A stretch of DNA of 25,768 nucleotides from a virus. The translations under genes and the position numbers were made by a program. Of this stretch, positions 1,337 to 22,427 are shown piece by piece. The first letter of the stretch is position 1. Each line of letters opens with the position of its first letter. Location of the stretch: positions 1 through 25,768 of the IMG/VR virus record IMGVR_UViG_3300032605_000125. One strand, given 5' to 3'. The notes under the pieces were generated by a model, which was given only the letters and a program-made list of their open reading frames with translations, did not search any database and was not told the origin of the DNA.

Positions 1337-2052
1337 AGTTGTTCGTCTAAGCTCAGTTCTTGGTCAAACTTTTGTGTTTTTGATTTGTACAGCTTGTCCA
1401 TGTAACCTTTGTTACGTAGGATTTTAAATGCCAGATTCTCTGTTGAGAATTCGCCGTTGGCATCTAGGCCAGCTTGACGCATTGACTTAATTTTATCTTT
1501 AAGACGATCTAGGTCTTCTACGCTACCTGATCGAATAGCGCGATTAACCTGTGTGATTAAATCACGGGCCTTGGCATTAACAGCACGATCATCGATGCTA
1601 GGTTCTTCATGTTTAGGAATACTAACCCACTTATCATCTAAGACATCGTATGTGCCTGAGCTGATGTTTTTAGCATCGACATCTTCTACATAGAGTTCTA
1701 CTTCATAGCCTTTGATAGTAATGTCATGTTCGTCATTCCATATCTTTTTCTTGGCCATGTAGAACTGTTCTGTGATATCACATCCTAGATCAGCATAATT
1801 AGTAACTAGATGTAGATCAAAGTCACTATAAGGAGTATAGTTGTAGTTAGCCAGGCTACCACGTAGTAAGATACCTGATAGTTTGAAGTTAGGTACTTCT
1901 AGGTATTCAATAAAACGATGTGCTATTTCTAATAGCCTATAGCGTACATCAATACGAAGTTTATAACCTTTGCCAAATACATCATCCCATACTTCGGGAT
2001 TTAGTTGATCATGGTAAGCAATATTACCTTTGACTAGATCCTTGGCTCGCAT
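1333..2052 (-). CDS. Pol-beta-type nucleotidyltransferase, putative head cargo
   Basis: 239 residues. Residues 60-82 carry the nucleotidyltransferase signature: G65-S66 followed by SDFDLHL with D77 and D79 as metal-binding carboxylates. A later beta strand (EVELYVEDV, 117-125) supplies a plausible third acidic residue. The family transfers NMP groups to nucleotides, nucleic acids or proteins; the substrate cannot be read here. The N-terminus MRAKDLVKG is close to the MRAKQFT and MRASEFI leaders of neighbours but lacks the terminal Glu, so cleavage is uncertain. The start overlaps the preceding stop by one base. In context it may be an injected host-modifying enzyme, functionally comparable to (not homologous with) T4 Alt. 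Confidence 0.8.
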   Translation of the reverse strand: MRAKDLVKGNIAYHDQLNPEVWDDVFGKGYKLRIDVRYRLLEIAHRFIEYLEVPNFKLSGILLRGSLANYNYTPYSDFDLHLVTNYADLGCDITEQFYMAKKKIWNDEHDITIKGYEVELYVEDVDAKNISSGTYDVLDDKWVSIPKHEEPSIDDRAVNAKARDLITQVNRAIRSGSVEDLDRLKDKIKSMRQAGLDANGEFSTENLAFKILRNKGYMDKLYKSKTQKFDQELSLDEQL

Positions 2053-3245
2053 TATTTTAAACCAGATAGTTTACGAATTGCGTCTACGCTTTCATTAACG
2101 TCGTCTTCGCCTGGGAATTTATGTGCTCTACCAGCATGACCCATATAATAACCTTGCTGTGCAGCCTTTTCAGCTTCACTGGCTTTCCACGCACGTAGAT
2201 GTTTCAATCTACTGGTCATTTTAGGATCGTCTTTGTGTTTTTCTAAAGTCTTGTCCCAATCACTTTGTTGTTCTGCGTGACGAGCATTGGCCGCATCAGC
2301 ACCCCACCCTTCACTTAGTGCTGAACGCATTTCTGCTTTAGTTTTTTTGTATTTTTTAAGAAATTCTTCGTCAGATAATTCTTTAAGGTCAATAGCAACA
2401 TCTTTAACACGACCTTCAGTAATTTGATGTTCTTCGCCGATGGTGTAGTAAGTATTTGCGGCACCATTGCTAGCACCGTTGCTAGCGGCTTTGTTTAAGT
2501 TGTCAACTAGACTCTTAATGTTTTTAGGAGTCATGTTGATTTTGTAACGACCACGTTCGTGTTCGTATGCTTTACCAACTTCTAATGTATAACCAAAGTA
2601 GTCTAACAACTCAGGAATAGTGCCTGATGTCGAACGAGTTCTATCTTCACGGCCAAAGCCACCACGTTTTGTAATGTTTACTACATAGGTCTTTTCAGCA
2701 CTTGCTTCTTCTAAGTCGTCATCTTGACCTAAATGTTTGCCAAAATCTTTAGCCAGATCTTTAGTAAATTTTTTAGTATCTTTTACAGGTTTACCTTGAA
2801 CAGCTTTTTGTCCTGGCTCTAAATCCTGTGATCCCCATGGTTTGTAATCTTCTTGATCTCCATGTTCGTTTAATTCGCTCTCACCTAGTCTAGAACGACT
2901 AGCGGCACGTGCTGCCATGTTTGCTACTCCTGCTTCGGACTTTTCTTTAGCTTTAGCAGGATCTTCATTTTTAACTGTTAAGATATCTGTTGAGAACTTA
3001 ATCTTGCTTGGATTGATACTGTCGATGTAGTGTTGTAGTTCTGGGCTAGCATGGTTAACTGCTACTAGATCTTTAAGCATGAACGGATGACCTAAGGCCG
3101 CCGATACTTTGGTAGTGATAACATCTGGACTTACTTCTGTATGTCCTTCTCCAATAAGTTTAATAACTTCTGCTACTACAGCATTGGCTTCATCACTATC
3201 ACCCATACCTTCATTAACTCTACGTGTAAATTGTTTTGCTCTCAT
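2052..3245 (-). CDS. Modular putative head precursor with several protease-like sites
   Basis: 397 residues, MRAKQFTRRVNE|G start. Apparent hydrophobic-x-E|small-residue sites recur: VNE12|G, LGE122|S, LEE180|A, ITE277|G, LSE312|G and VNE385|S, which fits the T4 gp21 consensus (I/L-x-E|A/G). They separate blocks of different composition: a helical 13-120 block; a linker with NEHGDQE and PGQKA (126-156) also found in the protein at 8204-9514; an alpha/beta block (185-250); an Asn/Ala/Gly stretch (251-264); a charged helical block (280-311); and a basic C-terminal block ending in AIRKLSGLK. No enzyme motif is evident. It could be a polyprotein-like core or scaffold component, or several injected peptides made as one chain. 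Confidence 0.8.
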   Translation of the reverse strand: MRAKQFTRRVNEGMGDSDEANAVVAEVIKLIGEGHTEVSPDVITTKVSAALGHPFMLKDLVAVNHASPELQHYIDSINPSKIKFSTDILTVKNEDPAKAKEKSEAGVANMAARAASRSRLGESELNEHGDQEDYKPWGSQDLEPGQKAVQGKPVKDTKKFTKDLAKDFGKHLGQDDDLEEASAEKTYVVNITKRGGFGREDRTRSTSGTIPELLDYFGYTLEVGKAYEHERGRYKINMTPKNIKSLVDNLNKAASNGASNGAANTYYTIGEEHQITEGRVKDVAIDLKELSDEEFLKKYKKTKAEMRSALSEGWGADAANARHAEQQSDWDKTLEKHKDDPKMTSRLKHLRAWKASEAEKAAQQGYYMGHAGRAHKFPGEDDVNESVDAIRKLSGLK

Positions 3246-3254
3246 GTTGATTTC

Positions 3255-3995
3255 CTAAATATCACCTAATTGCCATGCGCGGAACCAAGCACCTGTGCCT
3301 GGCAACGGACTACTTTCCGGTAGCTGAATTCCGTCTCTACCTAATGTTTCTTTAGCGTCTGCTATTAGTCGTTCAAAATCTGGACGACCTTTAATCTTTT
3401 TAATAATACTTTCTACAGAATTTAAATCATTGGGTGTACCGTTGATTAATTTCTGTGCTATTTCTTTTGGATCTAAACTAATAACTTCATTAGTAGTACG
3501 ATCCATAAGTCCAAACTTTGGGCTCCATTTCATGTTCTGTGCTTTGGCAATACTGCTTAACAGAATATGGCGGTGTAGTCCTTTATATGGGCTATTTGGT
3601 TGCCCACCCATTAATGAGAAATGCTGAAAACCAGGATTCTCAGTAAACATAAAATCTGTTTGTACAAAACCATTGTTTGGATCACCTAAAATAGGAGTTT
3701 TTACATGTACAGCATCACCAGATTTTCTGATATCATTCTTATTTACACCTTTGCGCAATAGTTGTTGTATTAGAACATCCTTGCTGACTTTAGTACTATC
3801 GACTCCTACGTCTAGGTCTCCGCTGGTTTCTGCGCGGCCAGTTGAGCCTAACATATTATCTACTAGATTAAGACCGGTTAGGCCTTCTAACCACTGTAGC
3901 GTAGGCACAACATTGTCGCGAGTAATGCGAATAGTTACAGGGCGACCCTCCGAGTCTTTAAATACATTACCGCCTTCAAATAAATTACTTGCCAT
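3255..3995 (-). CDS. Second nucleotidyltransferase-like putative head cargo
   Basis: 246 residues. G50-S51-T followed by SGDLDVGVD (D60, D62) and a strand VQTDFMF with D114 form a Pol-beta nucleotidyltransferase-type catalytic triad. The overall fold prediction differs from the neighbour at 1333-2052, so the two are distant relatives at best rather than a recent duplication. It opens MASNLFE|G, a shortened version of the targeting and cleavage signal with E7|G8 as the candidate site. The ATG lies 11 nt inside the end of the upstream gene with no clear ribosome-binding site, suggesting coupling. Substrate unknown; tRNA, NAD-linked or protein-AMP targets are all conceivable. Confidence 0.77.
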   Translation of the reverse strand: MASNLFEGGNVFKDSEGRPVTIRITRDNVVPTLQWLEGLTGLNLVDNMLGSTGRAETSGDLDVGVDSTKVSKDVLIQQLLRKGVNKNDIRKSGDAVHVKTPILGDPNNGFVQTDFMFTENPGFQHFSLMGGQPNSPYKGLHRHILLSSIAKAQNMKWSPKFGLMDRTTNEVISLDPKEIAQKLINGTPNDLNSVESIIKKIKGRPDFERLIADAKETLGRDGIQLPESSPLPGTGAWFRAWQLGDI

Positions 3996-4539
3996 ATGCT
4001 TTTACTAGTCCTTTTGCTACTACATCTAGAGAATTTTCGTCAGCTTGATATTTAATACCAATACCACCACGAGCATTCCATTTGTCGATATTTGTACCAC
4101 GATCATCAATTAAGATGTTAGGACTGCCATCTGCATTTACAGCGTGGGTTTCTTTTGTACCTGTGATAACAATATCTTGTGGCATAGGTCTTAGATGTGT
4201 ACTAATCCATTCACGCTTCCAATGTTCGCTGTTCTTGTGATCACCACGTAGGGGACTTGAACAGATGTTATAGTGTGGCACGTATTTTAATACTAATTTA
4301 ATTAGCGCATCTGCTGTGCTAAATTTGGGTAAACGTAAAAAGAAATCAGTGCCTACCATTTTGTTTAGTGTGGGATCTTCCTTAGCAGGTGGAATTGAAC
4401 GGTAGTCATGCTTACCATACTTGTTGGCTGGCACACCTGCTAGTTTAGCATATTCATGGAAAAAGTCGGCCAGCACACCATCCATATCTAAATAGATTTT
4501 GGTGTTCTTTGTTGCTCTAGTTAATTCGTCTGCTCTCAT
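3985..4539 (-). CDS. HAD-family 5'-nucleotidase-like phosphatase
   Basis: 184 residues. HAD motif I is YLDMDGVLADF with D18 as nucleophile and D20 as acid/base; motif II is SSPLRG (94-99); a Lys (109 or 129) could be motif III; motif IV is LIDDRGTNIDKW (D145, D146). This arrangement matches 5'(3')-deoxyribonucleotidase-type HAD enzymes, which dephosphorylate nucleoside monophosphates. The N-terminus MRADELTRATKN resembles the MRA-type leaders of neighbouring proteins but lacks a clear x-E|A site. It is the first gene of the left cargo operon, with two promoter-like elements just upstream. Possible roles are nucleotide salvage from host DNA or 3'-phosphate processing; specificity is not visible. 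Confidence 0.85.
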   Translation of the reverse strand: MRADELTRATKNTKIYLDMDGVLADFFHEYAKLAGVPANKYGKHDYRSIPPAKEDPTLNKMVGTDFFLRLPKFSTADALIKLVLKYVPHYNICSSPLRGDHKNSEHWKREWISTHLRPMPQDIVITGTKETHAVNADGSPNILIDDRGTNIDKWNARGGIGIKYQADENSLDVVAKGLVKAYGK

Positions 4540-7250: not shown

Positions 7251-7691
7251 CTATGTAGACAGTTTAACTGCCTTTTGGTGTACGGCTGTGCTATAATCTT
7301 TACCGTATTTGTCTCTTAGATATTTAAGAAATTCAAAATATTCGTGTTTATTTGCTAGTTTGTTGTCTATAGCACGTCTGATTAATCCACGTGCTGTTAA
7401 AATATGCTCGATACTAACAGGCTCTTCGTCATCTGTAATAAGATTCGCTACAGCCATATCTTCGTTAGTTTCACCATGCCATTGATCATCTCCGTTATAC
7501 CATTCATCAGCATCACTTTGTGGGCCTGTATAAGGATCTTGATCGGGACTATGGAACATACTATGGCCGTCGTACCATTGGCCTTCATCGTTGTGCCATT
7601 CGCTATCAGCTTCTTCCAAATTATCACGGTTTCTTTCTGGGTGATAAGGGACTACAGAATCGTTGTATTTAAAAAGTTCACATATAAACAT
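7251..7691 (-). CDS. Acidic putative head-targeted protein with Trp repeat
   Basis: 146 residues starting MFICELFKYND, similar to the MFLNELFE start of the protein at 10247-11149. LEE|A at 25-28 is a likely prohead-protease site. An imperfect repeat follows: EWHNDEGQWYDG (31-42) and EWYNGDDQWHGE (63-74), 32 residues apart. The C-terminal 95-140 region is helical with a charged face (RGLIRRAIDNK, FLKYLRDKYGKDY). No catalytic motif. A GATAAATA element lies 8 nt upstream of the ATG. Function unknown; head association is inferred from the leader and gene position. Confidence 0.72.
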   Translation of the reverse strand: MFICELFKYNDSVVPYHPERNRDNLEEADSEWHNDEGQWYDGHSMFHSPDQDPYTGPQSDADEWYNGDDQWHGETNEDMAVANLITDDEEPVSIEHILTARGLIRRAIDNKLANKHEYFEFLKYLRDKYGKDYSTAVHQKAVKLST

Positions 7692-9515: not shown

Positions 9516-9899
9516 TTATTTCTTCTTAGATCTTTTTTGTGTATATGTGCCGCCAAATAATGATCCTACTTGGCTTTTAGGTTTTCCTCCAGCCATTCCT
9601 GGAGTAGCAGCAATAGCACCTGAACCTGTACCACCAGCACTGGCATTTTCTGCTATGTGTGGTTGAACACCTTGTTCATGTTGGCTAAGAATATAATCAC
9701 CTACAGCAACAATCATACCTTTAGCTACCGCAATCTTTTCTTGACACCATTCAGGTAAGTCTTCGTTATCGTCTAGATTTTTAGCTAGCTCTAATGACAT
9801 ACGAATTGTTGTTAATAAATTATCTTTAACCATGCCTGCTTCGTCGTCATATTCTTCATGGCTGTATTCTGATTCGTTAATAAATTCTGATGGTTTCAT
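9516..9899 (-). CDS. Putative internal head protein, MKPSEFINE leader
   Basis: 127 residues. The MKPSEFINE|S leader is close to T4 internal protein leaders. Residues 15-77 form an acidic helical domain with LPEWCQEKIAVAKGM and GDYILSQHEQG; the C-terminal third is Gly/Ala/Ser-rich (SAGGTGSGAIAATPGM) and ends in a basic QKRSKKK. A late promoter TATAAATA lies 20 nt upstream, with AGGA before the ATG. The next gene starts one base after the stop, so the two are probably co-translated. Packaging is inferred; the function of the helical domain is unknown. Confidence 0.78.
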   Translation of the reverse strand: MKPSEFINESEYSHEEYDDEAGMVKDNLLTTIRMSLELAKNLDDNEDLPEWCQEKIAVAKGMIVAVGDYILSQHEQGVQPHIAENASAGGTGSGAIAATPGMAGGKPKSQVGSLFGGTYTQKRSKKK

Positions 9900-10246: not shown

Positions 10247-11149
10247 TTAAACAGGCTTAACACCTTTGCCTACATCTTTACCAACTTTAATCTGTCTTGT
10301 TGCTGGGCTTTTTCGTCCTACTAGACCAAATGCTTTCATTTCTTTACCCAAAGTCTCGGGACGAACATCTACAGTTAATCCCATTACATATCGTGGATCA
10401 TTGCCACCTTTAACAACACCCGAAGCCTCATCCATGTGTTTAAAGTATTCTACTTCACGTTCATGTTTTTTAGCGGCCGCTTTACTTGGAAAGTCTCCAA
10501 GATTCTTACCTGTCTTTTTACTAACTAATCTATAACCACTACCATGTTTAACAATGTGTTCTAATAACATACCTTTACGCACTGCGTGGAATAATGGTTT
10601 AGCTAGTTCGCCTGCGCCAGTTGCTTGAGCAAATGCTGCTATATCGTTGGCTTTGGCTGCAGCACGGGCGGCACTAGCACTTACTCCGGCTATTCCTTCG
10701 TCGTCAGGATCACGATCCCCACTACTAATAAAATTAATAGCGTCAAATTTATAATAAACATTACCGCCTTCTGCTCCATTGTATTTTTCTAATAATTCTT
10801 TAAAACTGTCTAGTCGATCACTACCTGCTACGAACGTAACAGAGCGATAGCCTTTATTATATAACCATTCGGCAATCTGCATTATGGTTCTTAGTCTAAG
10901 ATCCTGTACAATGTGCCCTGCTTGGTTGGGAAATAATGCTTTAAGGAATTTTACTTTTGTTTGGTAATCTAAAGGATTTTTCTTAGCGTCATGACTTTGG
11001 CTAGAAAAGATAAAGTAATCGCCACCGTGTGCCGATCTAACCACTGTGTCAATTAACTGAGCATGCCCGATAGTAGGCGGATTCATACGGCCGAAACAGA
11101 AGCTCGCATGTCTTTTGTCTATTGCTTCAAATAATTCATTTAGGAACAT
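10247..11149 (-). CDS. Cytidylyltransferase-fold enzyme, putative head cargo
   Basis: 300 residues, MFLNELFE|A start (candidate cleavage after E8). The next 180 residues are a nucleotidylyltransferase domain: FCFGRMNPPTIGHAQLID with the TIGH (T/HxGH) nucleotide-binding motif at 26-29, and GVSASAAR at 155-162 where the family has the ISSTxxR motif. This superfamily, which includes NMN adenylyltransferases and glycerol-3-phosphate cytidylyltransferases, transfers NMP with release of pyrophosphate; the acceptor is not readable here. A basic module, HGSGYRLVSKKTGKNLGDF (202-220), and a possible MDE241|A site follow, so the C-terminal part may be released as a separate peptide. GATAAATA lies 22 nt upstream. 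Confidence 0.83.
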   Translation of the reverse strand: MFLNELFEAIDKRHASFCFGRMNPPTIGHAQLIDTVVRSAHGGDYFIFSSQSHDAKKNPLDYQTKVKFLKALFPNQAGHIVQDLRLRTIMQIAEWLYNKGYRSVTFVAGSDRLDSFKELLEKYNGAEGGNVYYKFDAINFISSGDRDPDDEGIAGVSASAARAAAKANDIAAFAQATGAGELAKPLFHAVRKGMLLEHIVKHGSGYRLVSKKTGKNLGDFPSKAAAKKHEREVEYFKHMDEASGVVKGGNDPRYVMGLTVDVRPETLGKEMKAFGLVGRKSPATRQIKVGKDVGKGVKPV

Positions 11150-12698: not shown

Positions 12699-15011
12699 TT
12701 ATTCTACAACAATGATACCGTTCTCGTCAACAGTTTTATTTTCTAATAGATCTAACATTGGTGCTACCGCATCAAATGCTATAGCATCATTTTTATAATC
12801 TACAGAAATAATAGTACCACTGGCAATGTGATCGAATAAGATCTTTTTACTTAGTGGTACTTTAATAAGTTCGTTGATCTTACGTGCTAGTGGACGTGCG
12901 CCCATCTTAGGATCAAAACCAACGTCAGTTAAGTGGTCTACTAGAGGTTCAGTAAAGCGTAAGGTAATGGATTTTTCAGCAAGTAATTCATTAAGCTCGC
13001 TTAGGAATTTAATTACAACTTTCTTCATCGAAACTTTATCTAGTTTATTGAACTTGATCACAGCATCTAAACGATTGCGGAATTCTGGTTTAAAGAATTT
13101 TTGTGCCGCAGCATCATCAGTGCCTTCTTTTTGTTGACTGCGTCCAAAACCAATTGCGTTTTGTTCAGCATCACTAGCACCCAAGTTACTAGTTAAGATA
13201 ACAATACAGTTGCGGCAATCTGCTTTCTTACCATTACTTCCAGTAATAAAGCCCTCGTCCATGATGCTCAATAATAAGTTATTGATATCAGGATGTGCTT
13301 TTTCGATCTCATCTAACAAGATAATACTGTGTGGGTTGCGTTCAACTTCACTAATCAGCAGTCCACCACCTAGGTTACCATCTTCATAGCCCACATAGCC
13401 CGGAGGAGCACCAATAAGTTTAGCCATACTATGTTTTTCTTGATATTCACTCATATCAAAGCGAATTAGTTTCATAGCTAAGTTTTCACTTAATAGTTTA
13501 CATAGTTCTGTTTTACCAGTACCAGTTGGTCCTAAGAACAAGAAATTACCCACTGGTTTGTTGTGTGATTTCATACCAGCTTTGGCTACATAGATTTTTT
13601 CTAATACGCTGTCAACTGCGGAATCTTGCCCATACAAACGTTCTTTGATATTAGTATCAAGATTAATTAAGTTGGTGCTGGCTTTTTCTGTTAGCAAATG
13701 ATCACGTGGGATCTTAGTTGCTTTGCTGATAGTATCAACAATTTCTTCTTTACCGATAACAAAGTCTGCGTTCTTGATCTTCAAACGAGCACAGCTCATA
13801 TCAATTAGATCAATGGCCTTATCTGGTAAACGTTTGTCAGTTTGGTGACGAACACTTAGATCAACTGCGGCTTCAACAGCTTCGTCTGAAATAACGCCAC
13901 CATGGAATTTTTCAAAGTGATTGCGTAGACCGTATAAGATATCTTTAGCCACTTCAGGAGTAGGCTCATCAACATTTAGTTTATAAAAACGGCGCATTAA
14001 AGCACGATCTTTTTCGAAACTCTGTGTGTATTCTTCAAATGTAGTGCTAGCAATAACTTTAATACCACCTTTGGCCAATGCTGGTTTAAGCATGTTAGCA
14101 AAGTCTACTGAACTACTACCACCTGCGCCAGCACCCTGCATTTGATGTGCTTCATCAATAAACAGGATAGTTTTACCTTTTTGACCTAGAGCAGTAAGAA
14201 CTTCTTTGAGTTTTTCTTCAAACTCGCCACGATATTTACTACCAGCAAGCAAGCTACCAATTTCTAAATTGTATACTGTGTATTCTTTTAGATATTCAGG
14301 TACTTCTTTGTGTATAATCTTATAAGCAAGACCTTCGGCAATAGCAGTTTTACCTACACCAGGATCACCAATCATTAATACGTTTGATTTATTACGGCGA
14401 GCAAGTACTTGAGCAATTTCTTCTAGTTCATATTCACGCCCGATAACTGGATCAATTTTTCCTTCTTCAACATGTTTGTTAAGATCAGTACAATATTCTG
14501 CTAGGATCTTATCGGCGTAATCTTTCTTAGCCGATTCTCTTTTATTAGATGTAGGTTTAGTTAACCTATCAGCATTTTCCTCGGCATAGAATGATACAAG
14601 TTGCTTACGATTAATACCCCACTTGAGTATAAAATAACTAGCATGACTGTTTGGTTCTTGTGTTAGACTTAAGAACAAGTCAATAGGCTCGAGTTGTTCA
14701 CGGGCACTAAAGATAACCTGTGTAAACGCACGATTAAACACACGTTCTAAACTGTGTGTACGCATTGGAGCAATATCTTCTTTTTCCAAATTGACTAAAT
14801 GATCTTGCTTGCCTAAAAAGTCATATAGATCCCTTAAAAGATTTTCAACATCTGCGCCGTAATCGACTAATAATTTATTAAAGCTGGGGAATTCTACTAG
14901 ACCTGTTAATAAATGTTCTAGTGTAACGTATTCGTGTTTGTAGTCTTTAGCAAGAGCACAAGCATGGTTAATAATTTTTTCAATATCTGGATTTGTGTGC
15001 ATTTCAGACAA
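12699..15011 (-). CDS. clpA: ClpA-type AAA+ protein unfoldase
   Basis: 770 residues, close to bacterial ClpA and lacking the ClpB middle coiled coil. The N-domain (about 1-145) has the Clp repeat pattern (EYVTLEHLLTGL). AAA-1: Walker A GDPGVGKT (215-222), Walker B TILFIDEAH (281-289). AAA-2: Walker A GPTGTGKT (494-501), Walker B IILLDEIEKAHP (563-574), pore-loop-type GYVGYEDG (538-545). In ClpA the segment before FxPEFRNRLD holds the IGL loop that docks on ClpP; here it reads AIGFGR (619-624), an IGF version as in ClpX. I chose TTG at 15011 because AGGAG lies 5 nt upstream; the next ATG at 15002 is too far. Probably unfolds substrates for host ClpP. Starts 22 nt after dnaJ. Confidence 0.93.
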   Translation of the reverse strand: MSEMHTNPDIEKIINHACALAKDYKHEYVTLEHLLTGLVEFPSFNKLLVDYGADVENLLRDLYDFLGKQDHLVNLEKEDIAPMRTHSLERVFNRAFTQVIFSAREQLEPIDLFLSLTQEPNSHASYFILKWGINRKQLVSFYAEENADRLTKPTSNKRESAKKDYADKILAEYCTDLNKHVEEGKIDPVIGREYELEEIAQVLARRNKSNVLMIGDPGVGKTAIAEGLAYKIIHKEVPEYLKEYTVYNLEIGSLLAGSKYRGEFEEKLKEVLTALGQKGKTILFIDEAHQMQGAGAGGSSSVDFANMLKPALAKGGIKVIASTTFEEYTQSFEKDRALMRRFYKLNVDEPTPEVAKDILYGLRNHFEKFHGGVISDEAVEAAVDLSVRHQTDKRLPDKAIDLIDMSCARLKIKNADFVIGKEEIVDTISKATKIPRDHLLTEKASTNLINLDTNIKERLYGQDSAVDSVLEKIYVAKAGMKSHNKPVGNFLFLGPTGTGKTELCKLLSENLAMKLIRFDMSEYQEKHSMAKLIGAPPGYVGYEDGNLGGGLLISEVERNPHSIILLDEIEKAHPDINNLLLSIMDEGFITGSNGKKADCRNCIVILTSNLGASDAEQNAIGFGRSQQKEGTDDAAAQKFFKPEFRNRLDAVIKFNKLDKVSMKKVVIKFLSELNELLAEKSITLRFTEPLVDHLTDVGFDPKMGARPLARKINELIKVPLSKKILFDHIASGTIISVDYKNDAIAFDAVAPMLDLLENKTVDENGIIVVE

Positions 15012-15030: not shown

Positions 15031-15038
15031 TATTTATT
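15031..15038 (-). promoter_or_regulatory. Weak late promoter-like AATAAATA
   Basis: Minus-strand AATAAATA overlapping the dnaJ stop codon and about 19 nt before the TTG start of the ClpA-like gene. First base differs from both TATAAATA and GATAAATA, so this is only a candidate for separate late expression of clpA. Confidence 0.3.
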
Positions 15039-15885
15039 GAATTGATCTAATGTTTCTAAGTATGTTTAATTCTTGTTCAGACAGCATAGGTGTTTTAATT
15101 ATTACATTAACAATTAAATTACCGCGAACATTGCTGTTCATTTGATATAGTCCTTGGTTTTGTAAACCAAATTTAGTACCAAATTGACATCCTTGCGGTA
15201 TCTTAATATTAAATTCCTTGTTGTCTATTCCTTGAATTATTTTATCACATCCAAGCATAGCATCTATACTGTCAATTTCTAAATTCTGTACAAGATCTAT
15301 TCCATGTATTTCGAATCTAGCATCAGACTGTACATTAATTATAACATAAAGATCTCCTCTTGTCAAGGTATCAAACATGTTATCACCCATTTGACTGTAC
15401 TTAATAGTAGTGCCATTGCTGACCCCTCTTGGGATATTGACATCTATATTAAATCGATCACCTTTGGTTGTTTGTACGCTGATTGATTTTTGTTGTGAGT
15501 CTAAGGTGCTAGCTAAATCAATTGCTAATTGAACACGTAGATCTTTATTTCTACGCGGTTGTTGATGCCTTTGGAAAGGATTTTGTCCACCGAATCCCTG
15601 ACTAAAGAATTGTTGGAATATGTCATCACCACTGCCAAAGTGGAATTGAAATCCTCCAGGGGCTCCACTAAAATCGTGGAAACCTTGAAAAGGATTTGGA
15701 TTATCGTGTTGTGCTCTTTTCTGAGGATCTGTGAGAGTATCGTAAGCGTTTTGTATCTCTTGAAACTTAGCAGTATCACCGCCACGATCTGGGTGATGTT
15801 TACCTGCTAGTTTTCGATACGCTTTCTTGATGTCTTCATCAGATGCCCCTTTAGGCACACCTAATATTTCATACGCATTTGCCAT
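15034..15885 (-). CDS. dnaJ: DnaJ-like co-chaperone, class B
   Basis: 283 residues. J domain at 1-62 with YEILGV at the start and HPD at 31-33, which stimulates DnaK ATPase; Gly/Phe-rich linker (about 66-108, [17 protein letters not shown]); C-terminal substrate-binding beta domains (about 115-283) with [20 protein letters not shown]. No CxxCxGxG zinc repeats, so it is of the CbpA (class B) type. It would recruit host DnaK. Expressed just ahead of the ClpA-like unfoldase, suggesting a joint proteostasis module. No ribosome-binding site precedes the ATG and the sigma70-like -10 ends only 7 nt upstream, so it may be read from a nearly leaderless mRNA. Confidence 0.94.
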
Positions 15886-15892
15886 ATTGTTT

Positions 15893-15921
15893 ATTCTACA
15901 AGAAAACTATGATTTTGTCAA
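15893..15921 (-). promoter_or_regulatory. Sigma70-like promoter, TTGACA-17-TAGAAT
   Basis: Minus strand: TTGACA at 15921-15916, 17-nt spacer, TAGAAT at 15898-15893. The -35 is perfect, the -10 differs at one base. The dnaJ ATG begins at 15885, about where transcription should start. An AATAAATA at 15923-15930 just upstream is a possible weak late element. Confidence 0.72.
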
Positions 15922-20480: not shown

Positions 20481-21134
20481 TTATTTATCTAATCCGCGAG
20501 CACTCTTAGGCTGTACACCGTGCCATACTTCTTGATCTAACCAATATTCATCTACGTGTCTAACATATTTGGCATTAGGATTCACATCTATAAAGTTAAA
20601 GATATTAGAGTCAGTAACATCAATTGGAAATGCCAAGATGCGACTTAGATACTGTAGATAGTGTACACGATGTAGGAACAGTGCTTCTGTGCTAATAAAA
20701 TGTACAGGAAAGTCGCTAGGCAATAGAGTATTGTAGTAATATTCTTGTGCTATAGGAGTTGTATGTTCCTTACGTACTCTCAGTTGTTGCTCTCTATTAA
20801 TGTCTCGATCACGACAAATAATAGCAATTTTAACATCTACACCTAGCCCTCTAGCCTGTTGTGCTAGTTCAAGTATTTTGGGTACATAGCGTGTGCCATC
20901 ATAATAAAATGGACAGCTAACATTAGCCAGCCAATAGTCATAGCCTTCGAACGACTCGGCAGTAAGACGCTCAGGGTAGACCCAATATTCAGCAAAAGGT
21001 TCTTCGTCGCTAGGTACCCAATACTTGTCTAGTAAACTTTTCCATCCACCTACTGATTTTGTAGCACTCAACATGCGACTGAATAGGTGATTGCCACTGC
21101 CTTGTGGCCCTGTGATAATTAGTAGTTTTTTCAT
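20481..21134 (-). CDS. P-loop protein, sulfotransferase-like, copy A
   Basis: 217 residues. KKLLIITGPQGSGNHLFSR holds a P-loop (G9-H16) in which the usual Lys is replaced by Asn-His, as can occur in sulfotransferase-like folds rather than ATPases. Further conserved blocks are GWKSLLDKYW, EPFAEYW, and CRDRDINREQQLRVR (about 107-121), which may bind a phosphosulfate-type 3'-phosphate. All recur in the neighbour at 21131-21760, so the pair is a tandem duplication. Likely transfers sulfate (from PAPS) or binds a nucleotide; the substrate is unknown. Overlaps the upstream gene by 4 nt. Confidence 0.72.
   Translation of the reverse strand: MKKLLIITGPQGSGNHLFSRMLSATKSVGGWKSLLDKYWVPSDEEPFAEYWVYPERLTAESFEGYDYWLANVSCPFYYDGTRYVPKILELAQQARGLGVDVKIAIICRDRDINREQQLRVRKEHTTPIAQEYYYNTLLPSDFPVHFISTEALFLHRVHYLQYLSRILAFPIDVTDSNIFNFIDVNPNAKYVRHVDEYWLDQEVWHGVQPKSARGLDK
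20482..20489 (-). promoter_or_regulatory. T4-type late promoter-like GATAAATA
   Basis: Minus-strand GATAAATA overlapping the stop codon of the P-loop gene at 20481-21134 and 25 nt before the ATG at 20456. Same stop-overlapping geometry as the TATAAATA at 9920-9927. Confidence 0.6.
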
Positions 21135-21760
21135 GGTTTATTCTTTAGAGGTTTACCTGTTTTATTACATTCATCTAAGAAATACTCCTCAACATAATGT
21201 ACATACTTGCTATTGCTATCATCGGCTAAAAACTCGTCAATTTTGGCGTCATTATAGGCAATTGGAATATTAAAATTAAGTGTTTTGAGATATTCTTGAC
21301 GGTATAATTGAAGTAATTCATAGCTGACGAACTTAGGTGTTATAAATGAATTTTTTATTGAATCTAATAGCATAGGTGTAGTATATTCCCCACGTAAGCG
21401 TGTTTGTTGGTTGTGTAGAATATTTTGATCACGACCACATACTACTAGTTCTGTATCGATACCAATATTCATTAGAGTTCGAATAAACATTTTTATATCC
21501 GGAGTCCATTTAGCATCACCTATGCCTAATGGCACACTAATACTAGTAAAATAGTAATTGCTTTGTGTCCAATCAAATTCTTTTAGTAAACTCAAATCTT
21601 TCCAACATTCAGCAAATGGTTCTGCGTAACGATGTGCTTCCCAATAATTATCCAACAATGTTTTCCAACCAAATACTTCTGGATGTAAGCTGAATATCTT
21701 ACTCCATAAGTGATTACCGGCACCTTGTGGGCCTGTTAAGACTAACATTTTTTTAGACAT
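21131..21760 (-). CDS. P-loop protein, sulfotransferase-like, copy B
   Basis: Start chosen at 21760 (MSKKMLVLTGPQGAGNHLW), giving 209 residues; an earlier in-frame start would add a long hydrophobic extension lying in the neighbouring gene. Shares with copy A the GPQGxGNHLxS P-loop, GWKxLLDxYW, EPFAExW, a GRDxxIxxxQQxRxR block and a YVxxVxEYxLD C-terminal block. Sequence has clearly diverged, so this is an old duplication. The start overlaps the upstream gene's stop by 8 nt. Confidence 0.72.
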   Translation of the reverse strand: MSKKMLVLTGPQGAGNHLWSKIFSLHPEVFGWKTLLDNYWEAHRYAEPFAECWKDLSLLKEFDWTQSNYYFTSISVPLGIGDAKWTPDIKMFIRTLMNIGIDTELVVCGRDQNILHNQQTRLRGEYTTPMLLDSIKNSFITPKFVSYELLQLYRQEYLKTLNFNIPIAYNDAKIDEFLADDSNSKYVHYVEEYFLDECNKTGKPLKNKP

Positions 21761-22427
21761 TTGATTTACCAAAAGTGTCAATAATATTTGTATATTTTTG
21801 AAAATCATCACTAGATAAAAATAAACTAAAGTCCTTAGCGGATTTAATCCTAGCTTCATAATACCATCTATTGATTAAGTTAGCTTCTTTATAATGATCA
21901 TCAAATTTAAAGAAATCTATAATAGATCGATAGATATTAATATCTAGCTGTTCTCCGAATATATTAAATTCTGTTATTAGCCAATTATTGGATTTTATAT
22001 CACTATTAGCTATCACATTTAATTCTGTATTCCAGGTATATAATTTTTCTCTAAATTCAACAAATGATATCGAATTCAAAGAGGAATTAATATGAAAATA
22101 ATGTGCTATTGTTTTATCAATATCAGTTGACTTTAGAAATAGGATTTTTCTGTTTTTATATGTTTCATTAGTTTCCCAATCGTATAGTTCATGTTCGATT
22201 TTAATCTGATCATCTAATTGATTTCGAAATTGCCATTCGATCTGTAACCAATTGTTCCACGTTCTTTTTTTATTATAGACTTCTGTTTGGATAAAATCTA
22301 ATTTATGATCGATAGATTGTCCATTTGTATATGGATTATGAATTGAATTATCTAAAAATAATAACCATCTAACATGGTTGCCACCAGCTCCCCACGGAAA
22401 TGAAATAATAGGAGTTTGTTTATCCAT
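21753..22427 (-). CDS. P-loop-like GNH protein, divergent third copy
   Basis: Start chosen at 22427 (MDKQTPIISFPWGAGGNHVR) because it forms a TAATG junction with the amidotransferase stop; 224 residues. The segment PWGAGGNH (11-18) echoes the GPQGxGNH P-loop of the next two genes, but the remainder (Trp/Asn/Ile/Asp-rich, AT-rich codons, e.g. RTWNNWLQIEWQFRNQ) has little else in common. Base composition is noticeably more AT-rich than its neighbours. Sulfotransferase-like folding is a tentative reading; function unknown. Confidence 0.68.
   Translation of the reverse strand: MDKQTPIISFPWGAGGNHVRWLLFLDNSIHNPYTNGQSIDHKLDFIQTEVYNKKRTWNNWLQIEWQFRNQLDDQIKIEHELYDWETNETYKNRKILFLKSTDIDKTIAHYFHINSSLNSISFVEFREKLYTWNTELNVIANSDIKSNNWLITEFNIFGEQLDINIYRSIIDFFKFDDHYKEANLINRWYYEARIKSAKDFSLFLSSDDFQKYTNIIDTFGKSNV

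Follow-up and report, generated by a model that had tools for sequence, protein, structure and literature searches.

Which peptidase, if any, is served by a Clp unfoldase that a phage encodes? The question is raised by the open reading frame at 12699..15011 (minus strand) of the window, by which we mean the whole stretch of 25,768 nucleotides analysed here, a 25.8-kb fragment whose carrier is a large freshwater-type virus of bacteria. The reading frame encodes 770 amino acids without an internal stop, from a TTG start with a GGAG ribosome-binding site, and its product shows the Pfam order Clp_N, AAA, AAA_lid_9, AAA_2 and ClpB_D2-small. The TIGR02639 profile for ClpA matches it over its full length (E=5.5e-249) with 828 bits, a score below the curated equivalog cut-off of 993 bits, whereas the ClpB profile scores lower (663 bits); the profile phrog_4871 covers residues 6-748 with 804 bits, a full-length match to the phage ClpA family (PHROG 4871). 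The Clp N-domain (aa 8-145, 14577..14990), delimited by Pfam and by alignment with E. coli ClpA, is followed by the D1 ring with Walker A motif GDPGVGKT (aa 215-222, 14346..14369) and pore loop KYRG (aa 259-262, 14226..14237), and by the D2 ring with Walker A motif GPTGTGKT (aa 494-501, 13509..13532) and pore loop GYVG (aa 538-541, 13389..13400), all on the minus strand and placed by alignment. The Walker A/B motifs of both rings, the two pore loops, sensor 2 and an IGF loop are all intact in this alignment, and the middle region has the length seen in ClpA (48-57 aa in bacterial ClpA-type proteins, 103-110 aa in ClpC-type ones), without a long middle domain. An AlphaFold2 model (pLDDT 80.4, pTM 0.52) found its best Foldseek matches among ClpC/ClpA entries, including ClpAP-ClpS complexes, and the top PDB match of a profile built from 41 relatives was E. 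coli ClpA. Judged from its sequence, the gene product is a functional-looking two-ring AAA+ unfoldase of the ClpA type, in line with the full-length double AAA+ ClpA homologue that an earlier note had described here. With E. coli ClpAPS (PDB 1r6b, 7uiv) it has in common the domain order, Walker motifs, pore loops, docking-loop position and presumed ClpS-binding residues of the N-domain, but clpA is paired with dnaJ instead of clpS and the phage clade lies outside bacterial ClpA. Two AAA+ rings and a Clp N-domain are likewise shared with ClpC and ClpB (Hsp100), but the middle region is of neither ClpC nor ClpB length.

Phage ClpA is less uncommon than the earlier note had supposed. A relative was found in 153 phage records, some of which are contaminated or consist of bacterial sequence without annotation, and in at least 597 IMG/VR contigs. 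The protein has also been reported in jumbo phages (PMC7824862), adjoining DnaJ in Atu_ph07 (PMC6102473) and as a core gene of the moraphages, large freshwater phages that also carry DnaJ, DnaK and Hsp20 (PMC12619734). Jumbo-phage ClpAs (PHROG 4871; Atu_ph07 ClpA, PA5oct EST35_0298, GAP32_229) are full-length two-ring proteins like that of the window, are often found beside dnaJ and occur in large genomes also encoding ClpP and ClpS (PMC6102473, PMC7824862). The moraphages resemble the lineage of the window in combining ClpA with chaperone cargo, but the relatives of the window reach 374 kb against 307 kb for moraphages. In a FastTree phylogeny of D1 and D2, 33 phage ClpAs, that of the window among them, were monophyletic (local support 0.99) and outside the sampled bacterial ClpA; hence phage ClpA appears, within a limited bacterial sampling, to be an old phage lineage rather than a recent capture from a host. 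The protein of the window falls in a separate, well-supported clade of phages from IMG/VR (local support 1.0). ClpA of isolated phages shares at most about 42% identity with it. The top match in the phage collection, from 'Acinetobacter phage MD-2021a' (43.5% identity), was rejected as bacterial contamination: clpS-clpA lies there among argC/aroF on what is apparently a bacterial chromosome (CAKLQF020000008.1), and the protein groups with Acinetobacter in the tree.

The segment AIGFGR (aa 619-624) does lie at the position of the ClpP-docking loop, as had been claimed, since its tripeptide IGF (aa 620-622, 13146..13154, minus strand) aligns column for column with IGL 617-619 of E. coli ClpA. 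This putative docking tripeptide, which follows the pattern of I, L, V or M, then G, then F or L, is IGF in 74 of 80 phage homologues (with identities of ~51% or more), VGF in two, and IGM, IGI, LGF and MGF in one each. Its glycine is invariant (80/80), and the three positions have entropies of 0.36, 0 and 0.19 bits, compared with values as high as 2.7 bits in the loop around them. Residues 621-628 are below 50 pLDDT and are predicted to be disordered, as expected of a flexible docking loop. An invariant glycine and a tripeptide conserved beyond chance amid variable flanks indicate that the loop is probably under strong purifying selection for ClpP docking, and such a loop in a functional-looking ClpA makes a ClpP-coupled protease likelier than a pure disaggregase. 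The suggestion that IGF is a ClpX-like or special form does not hold: among 80 bacterial ClpA/ClpC relatives sampled by similarity to the phage protein, IGF was the commonest tripeptide (47/80; xGF 77/80) and IGL was found once, in Erwinia, which makes the IGF form look ordinary for ClpA and devoid of special meaning.

We consider it reasonably probable (about 0.62) that the ClpA of the window powers a ClpA-ClpP protease of the phage's own, with ClpS as adaptor and a J-protein feeding it. Pfam and PHROG profiles detected neither clpP, as the earlier note had correctly observed, nor ClpS in the window; in a 25.8-kb fragment a missing clpP means little, and both proteins are present in the closest long relatives. 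ClpP, ClpS and DnaJ all accompany the ClpAs of L005, L049 and L061 (80%, 76% and 75% identity, on contigs of 201-329 kb), and their occurrence in the window's own phage is deduced from such relatives. A ClpA 99.9% identical to that of the window occurs in L059. Over the 22 records longer than 100 kb that carry a ClpA relative, all of which may be fragments, ClpP was above cut-off in 7, ClpS in 11 and DnaJ in 22; beyond 300 kb the numbers were 4/5 for ClpP and 5/5 for ClpS. A ClpP match was missing in 15 of the 22, which may be incomplete, including L072 at 338 kb, and neither ClpP nor ClpS was detected in L024 and L027, which have non-IGF loops. All eight ClpA-bearing isolates examined (Atu_ph07, Phosso, PA5oct, GAP32, RaK2, Vibrio 2.275.O, SCTP-2 and XaC1) encode ClpP and ClpS, the ClpS of XaC1 being sub-threshold at 18.4 bits; since they share lineages and represent about 5-6 independent ones, the association is given as counts without a p-value. 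ClpS was found in none of eight ClpA-less control phages. PBECO4 was rejected as such a control and counted as a positive, as it carries ClpA, ClpS and ClpP. As a marker, ClpP by itself is less telling than ClpS, because ClpP-like matches occur in some controls, namely a canonical ClpP adjoining a ClpX-like match in phage G and divergent matches in KVP40 and phiR1-37. Canonical ClpX was discarded as a general partner, being above cut-off in only 2 of the 22 long records, and Leu/Phe-transferase, a possible source of N-degrons, was found in 0/22.

The best-surviving alternative, although we judge it unlikely, is that phage ClpA couples to the ClpP of the host and diverts host proteolysis, as the earlier note had deduced from the missing clpP. 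It retains some weight because a loop of the commonest bacterial form should also fit the ClpP of a proteobacterial host, and no ClpP was seen in the window or in the 338-kb record. Its original ground is nevertheless weakened by the ClpP encoded in the closest long relatives and in every isolate, and the interacting surfaces speak against it as well. In RaK2-like phages, in which the docking tripeptide has become IGV, IGM or LGM, the ClpP cleft shows polar changes, the degron pocket and K84 of ClpS are lost, and so are the presumed ClpS-binding residues of the ClpA N-domain. That these surfaces degenerate together argues for phage ClpA working with the ClpP and ClpS of the phage. A point against a phage-owned protease is that the divergent ClpP-like proteins in these phages could be head-maturation proteases.

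In the clade of the window, by contrast with RaK2-like phages, the surfaces are largely kept. The catalytic triad S97, H122 and D171 is kept in every phage ClpP, the cleft residues L48, Y62, F82, I90 and L114 are kept with Y60 replaced by Leu, and ClpS retains N34, D35, H66, E79, K84 and its short N-terminal extension. The N-domain of ClpA keeps, by alignment, the positions of E. coli ClpA E23, E28, T81 and R86, which we take to be ClpS contacts (these numbers and those of the ClpP cleft are the ones we presume), and its E32, T85 and R90 are invariant. A literature search for the ClpS-contact residues of ClpA returned no residue list. The N-domain is present, as had been noted, but the further proposal that it is of phage type, with a specificity that may have changed, is too simple in view of these kept positions, the surface having decayed only in RaK2-like phages, together with their ClpS. 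ClpA and ClpP distances correlate overall (Mantel p 0.0002) but weakly within the clade of the window (0.35, p=0.07), where two types of ClpP, told apart by the presence or absence of a handle-region insert, have a distribution that does not match the ClpA tree. ClpP may therefore be exchanged and need not be tied to one ClpA as its dedicated partner. The insert, of about 10 residues near His122, is found in the ClpP of L085, L086, L087 and L088 and also of PA5oct; it may influence mixing with the ClpP rings of the host.

The pairing of clpA with a J-protein gene bears on a second, improbable alternative, a ClpP-independent disaggregase or remodeller (ClpB-like or ClpG-like) that would act with the adjacent DnaJ on virion parts or host aggregates. 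The dnaJ-like gene (15034..15885, minus strand), identified with Pfam and further profiles, encodes a J-domain with HPD and a DnaJ_C region without zinc finger. It lies directly upstream of clpA, and the two genes, a near-universal pair in the clade, directly adjoin each other in at least 62 of 76 loci as well as in Atu_ph07 and PA5oct. One gene separates the two in Phosso; it encodes a peptide deformylase and may have to do with N-terminal processing and N-degrons. Relatives also carry a DnaK-Hsp20-ClpS cassette: of 80 ClpS loci, some of them truncated, all have Hsp20 and 70 have DnaK. The cassette as such is present in 70 of these 80 loci (L305-L384; region of around 2.5 kb upstream of ClpS) and is usually followed by a nucleotidyltransferase-like gene. 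These chaperones, and the translocase or assembly roles proposed for jumbo-phage ClpA (PMC7824862), would suit a disaggregase, but the protein has neither the coiled-coil middle domain of ClpB nor a middle region of that length, the conservation of its IGF loop would be without reason, and ClpS tracks with ClpA.

A near-consensus sigma-70-like promoter (TTGACA-N17-TAGAAT, 15893..15921, minus strand) is predicted before dnaJ, its -10 element ending 7 nt before the ATG. The same arrangement, with a distance of 6-8 nt, is seen in the window, L002, L005, L061, L031, L038 and others, and promoters scoring at least 10/12 precede 40 of 70 dnaJ starts versus 0 of 49 dnaK starts, against a background of about 4 in 283 other ORFs and 0.4% of random positions. 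Such spacing suggests a leaderless dnaJ mRNA, and dnaJ and clpA are probably co-transcribed as an operon. Within dnaJ, at 15338-15366 (minus strand) and about 330 nt upstream of clpA, there is a perfect 12/12 promoter sequence (TTGACA-N17-TATAAT, its -10 preceded by TG), possibly a promoter of clpA alone.

The least probable alternative, that the machine acts late in infection as a virion-assembly factor, removing or reshaping structural or scaffold proteins, draws on the location of clpA among structural genes in GAP32, XaC1 and PA5oct and on the virion-structural family member, endolysin and holin-like protein of the window (PHROG profiles), but the promoter before dnaJ suggests early transcription by host RNA polymerase, and the proposal concerns substrates and is compatible with a phage-owned protease. 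Many unrelated ORFs of the window have a short motif in common at the N-terminus (MRASEFIVEN, MKPSEFINES, MFLNELFEA and others), namely those at 2-208, 208-837, 834-1028, 1333-2052, 2052-3245, 3985-4539, 7251-7691, 9516-9899 and 10247-11149 (minus strand). The motif resembles what we take to be the capsid-targeting sequence of the packaged internal proteins of T4, and these ORFs may encode proteins injected with the DNA. Two adjacent paralogous ORFs (20481-21134 and 21131-21859, minus strand) begin with a P-loop-like motif GPQGxGNH and are possibly sulfotransferase-like.

For the preferred phage-owned protease, we propose that a hexameric ClpA unfoldase, co-transcribed with the J-protein, would engage the clefts of a ClpP tetradecamer through its IGF loops, that a ClpS adaptor of the phage would deliver substrates to its N-domains, and that ClpA would thread these into ClpP for degradation during infection. 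DnaJ, with host DnaK or with the phage DnaK and Hsp20 found in relatives, probably maintains clients in soluble form and passes them on. Going by its nearest relatives, this phage most likely carries clpP and clpS elsewhere in its genome, beyond the 25.8-kb fragment. The motifs, loop conservation, gene pairing and co-occurrence in relatives are read from sequences, while co-transcription, assembly, the ClpP used, delivery by ClpS and the substrates are deduced from them. More tentatively, at slightly less than even odds, the window may belong to a lineage of large phages with a self-sufficient proteostasis machine of the N-degron type (their own ClpA, ClpS and ClpP with DnaJ, to which many relatives add a DnaK-Hsp20-ClpS operon) that stands beside the host system and makes its own choice of substrates. 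The parts had been listed for Atu_ph07 and in a survey of 224 jumbo phages that treats ClpP and ClpS as alternatives; in the literature searched, we found no description of a systematic ClpA-ClpS-ClpP trio.

To conclude, phage ClpA was already known, and the ClpP and ClpS encoded by its relatives indicate that these phages probably bring a whole protein-shredding machine with them and do not depend on that of the host alone. If these phages do bring a complete ClpAPS, they would inherit, and not borrow, the module by which they control protein turnover in the host. The pocket of ClpS suggests that this control follows N-degrons, and the targets could then be proteins exposing certain N-terminal residues.
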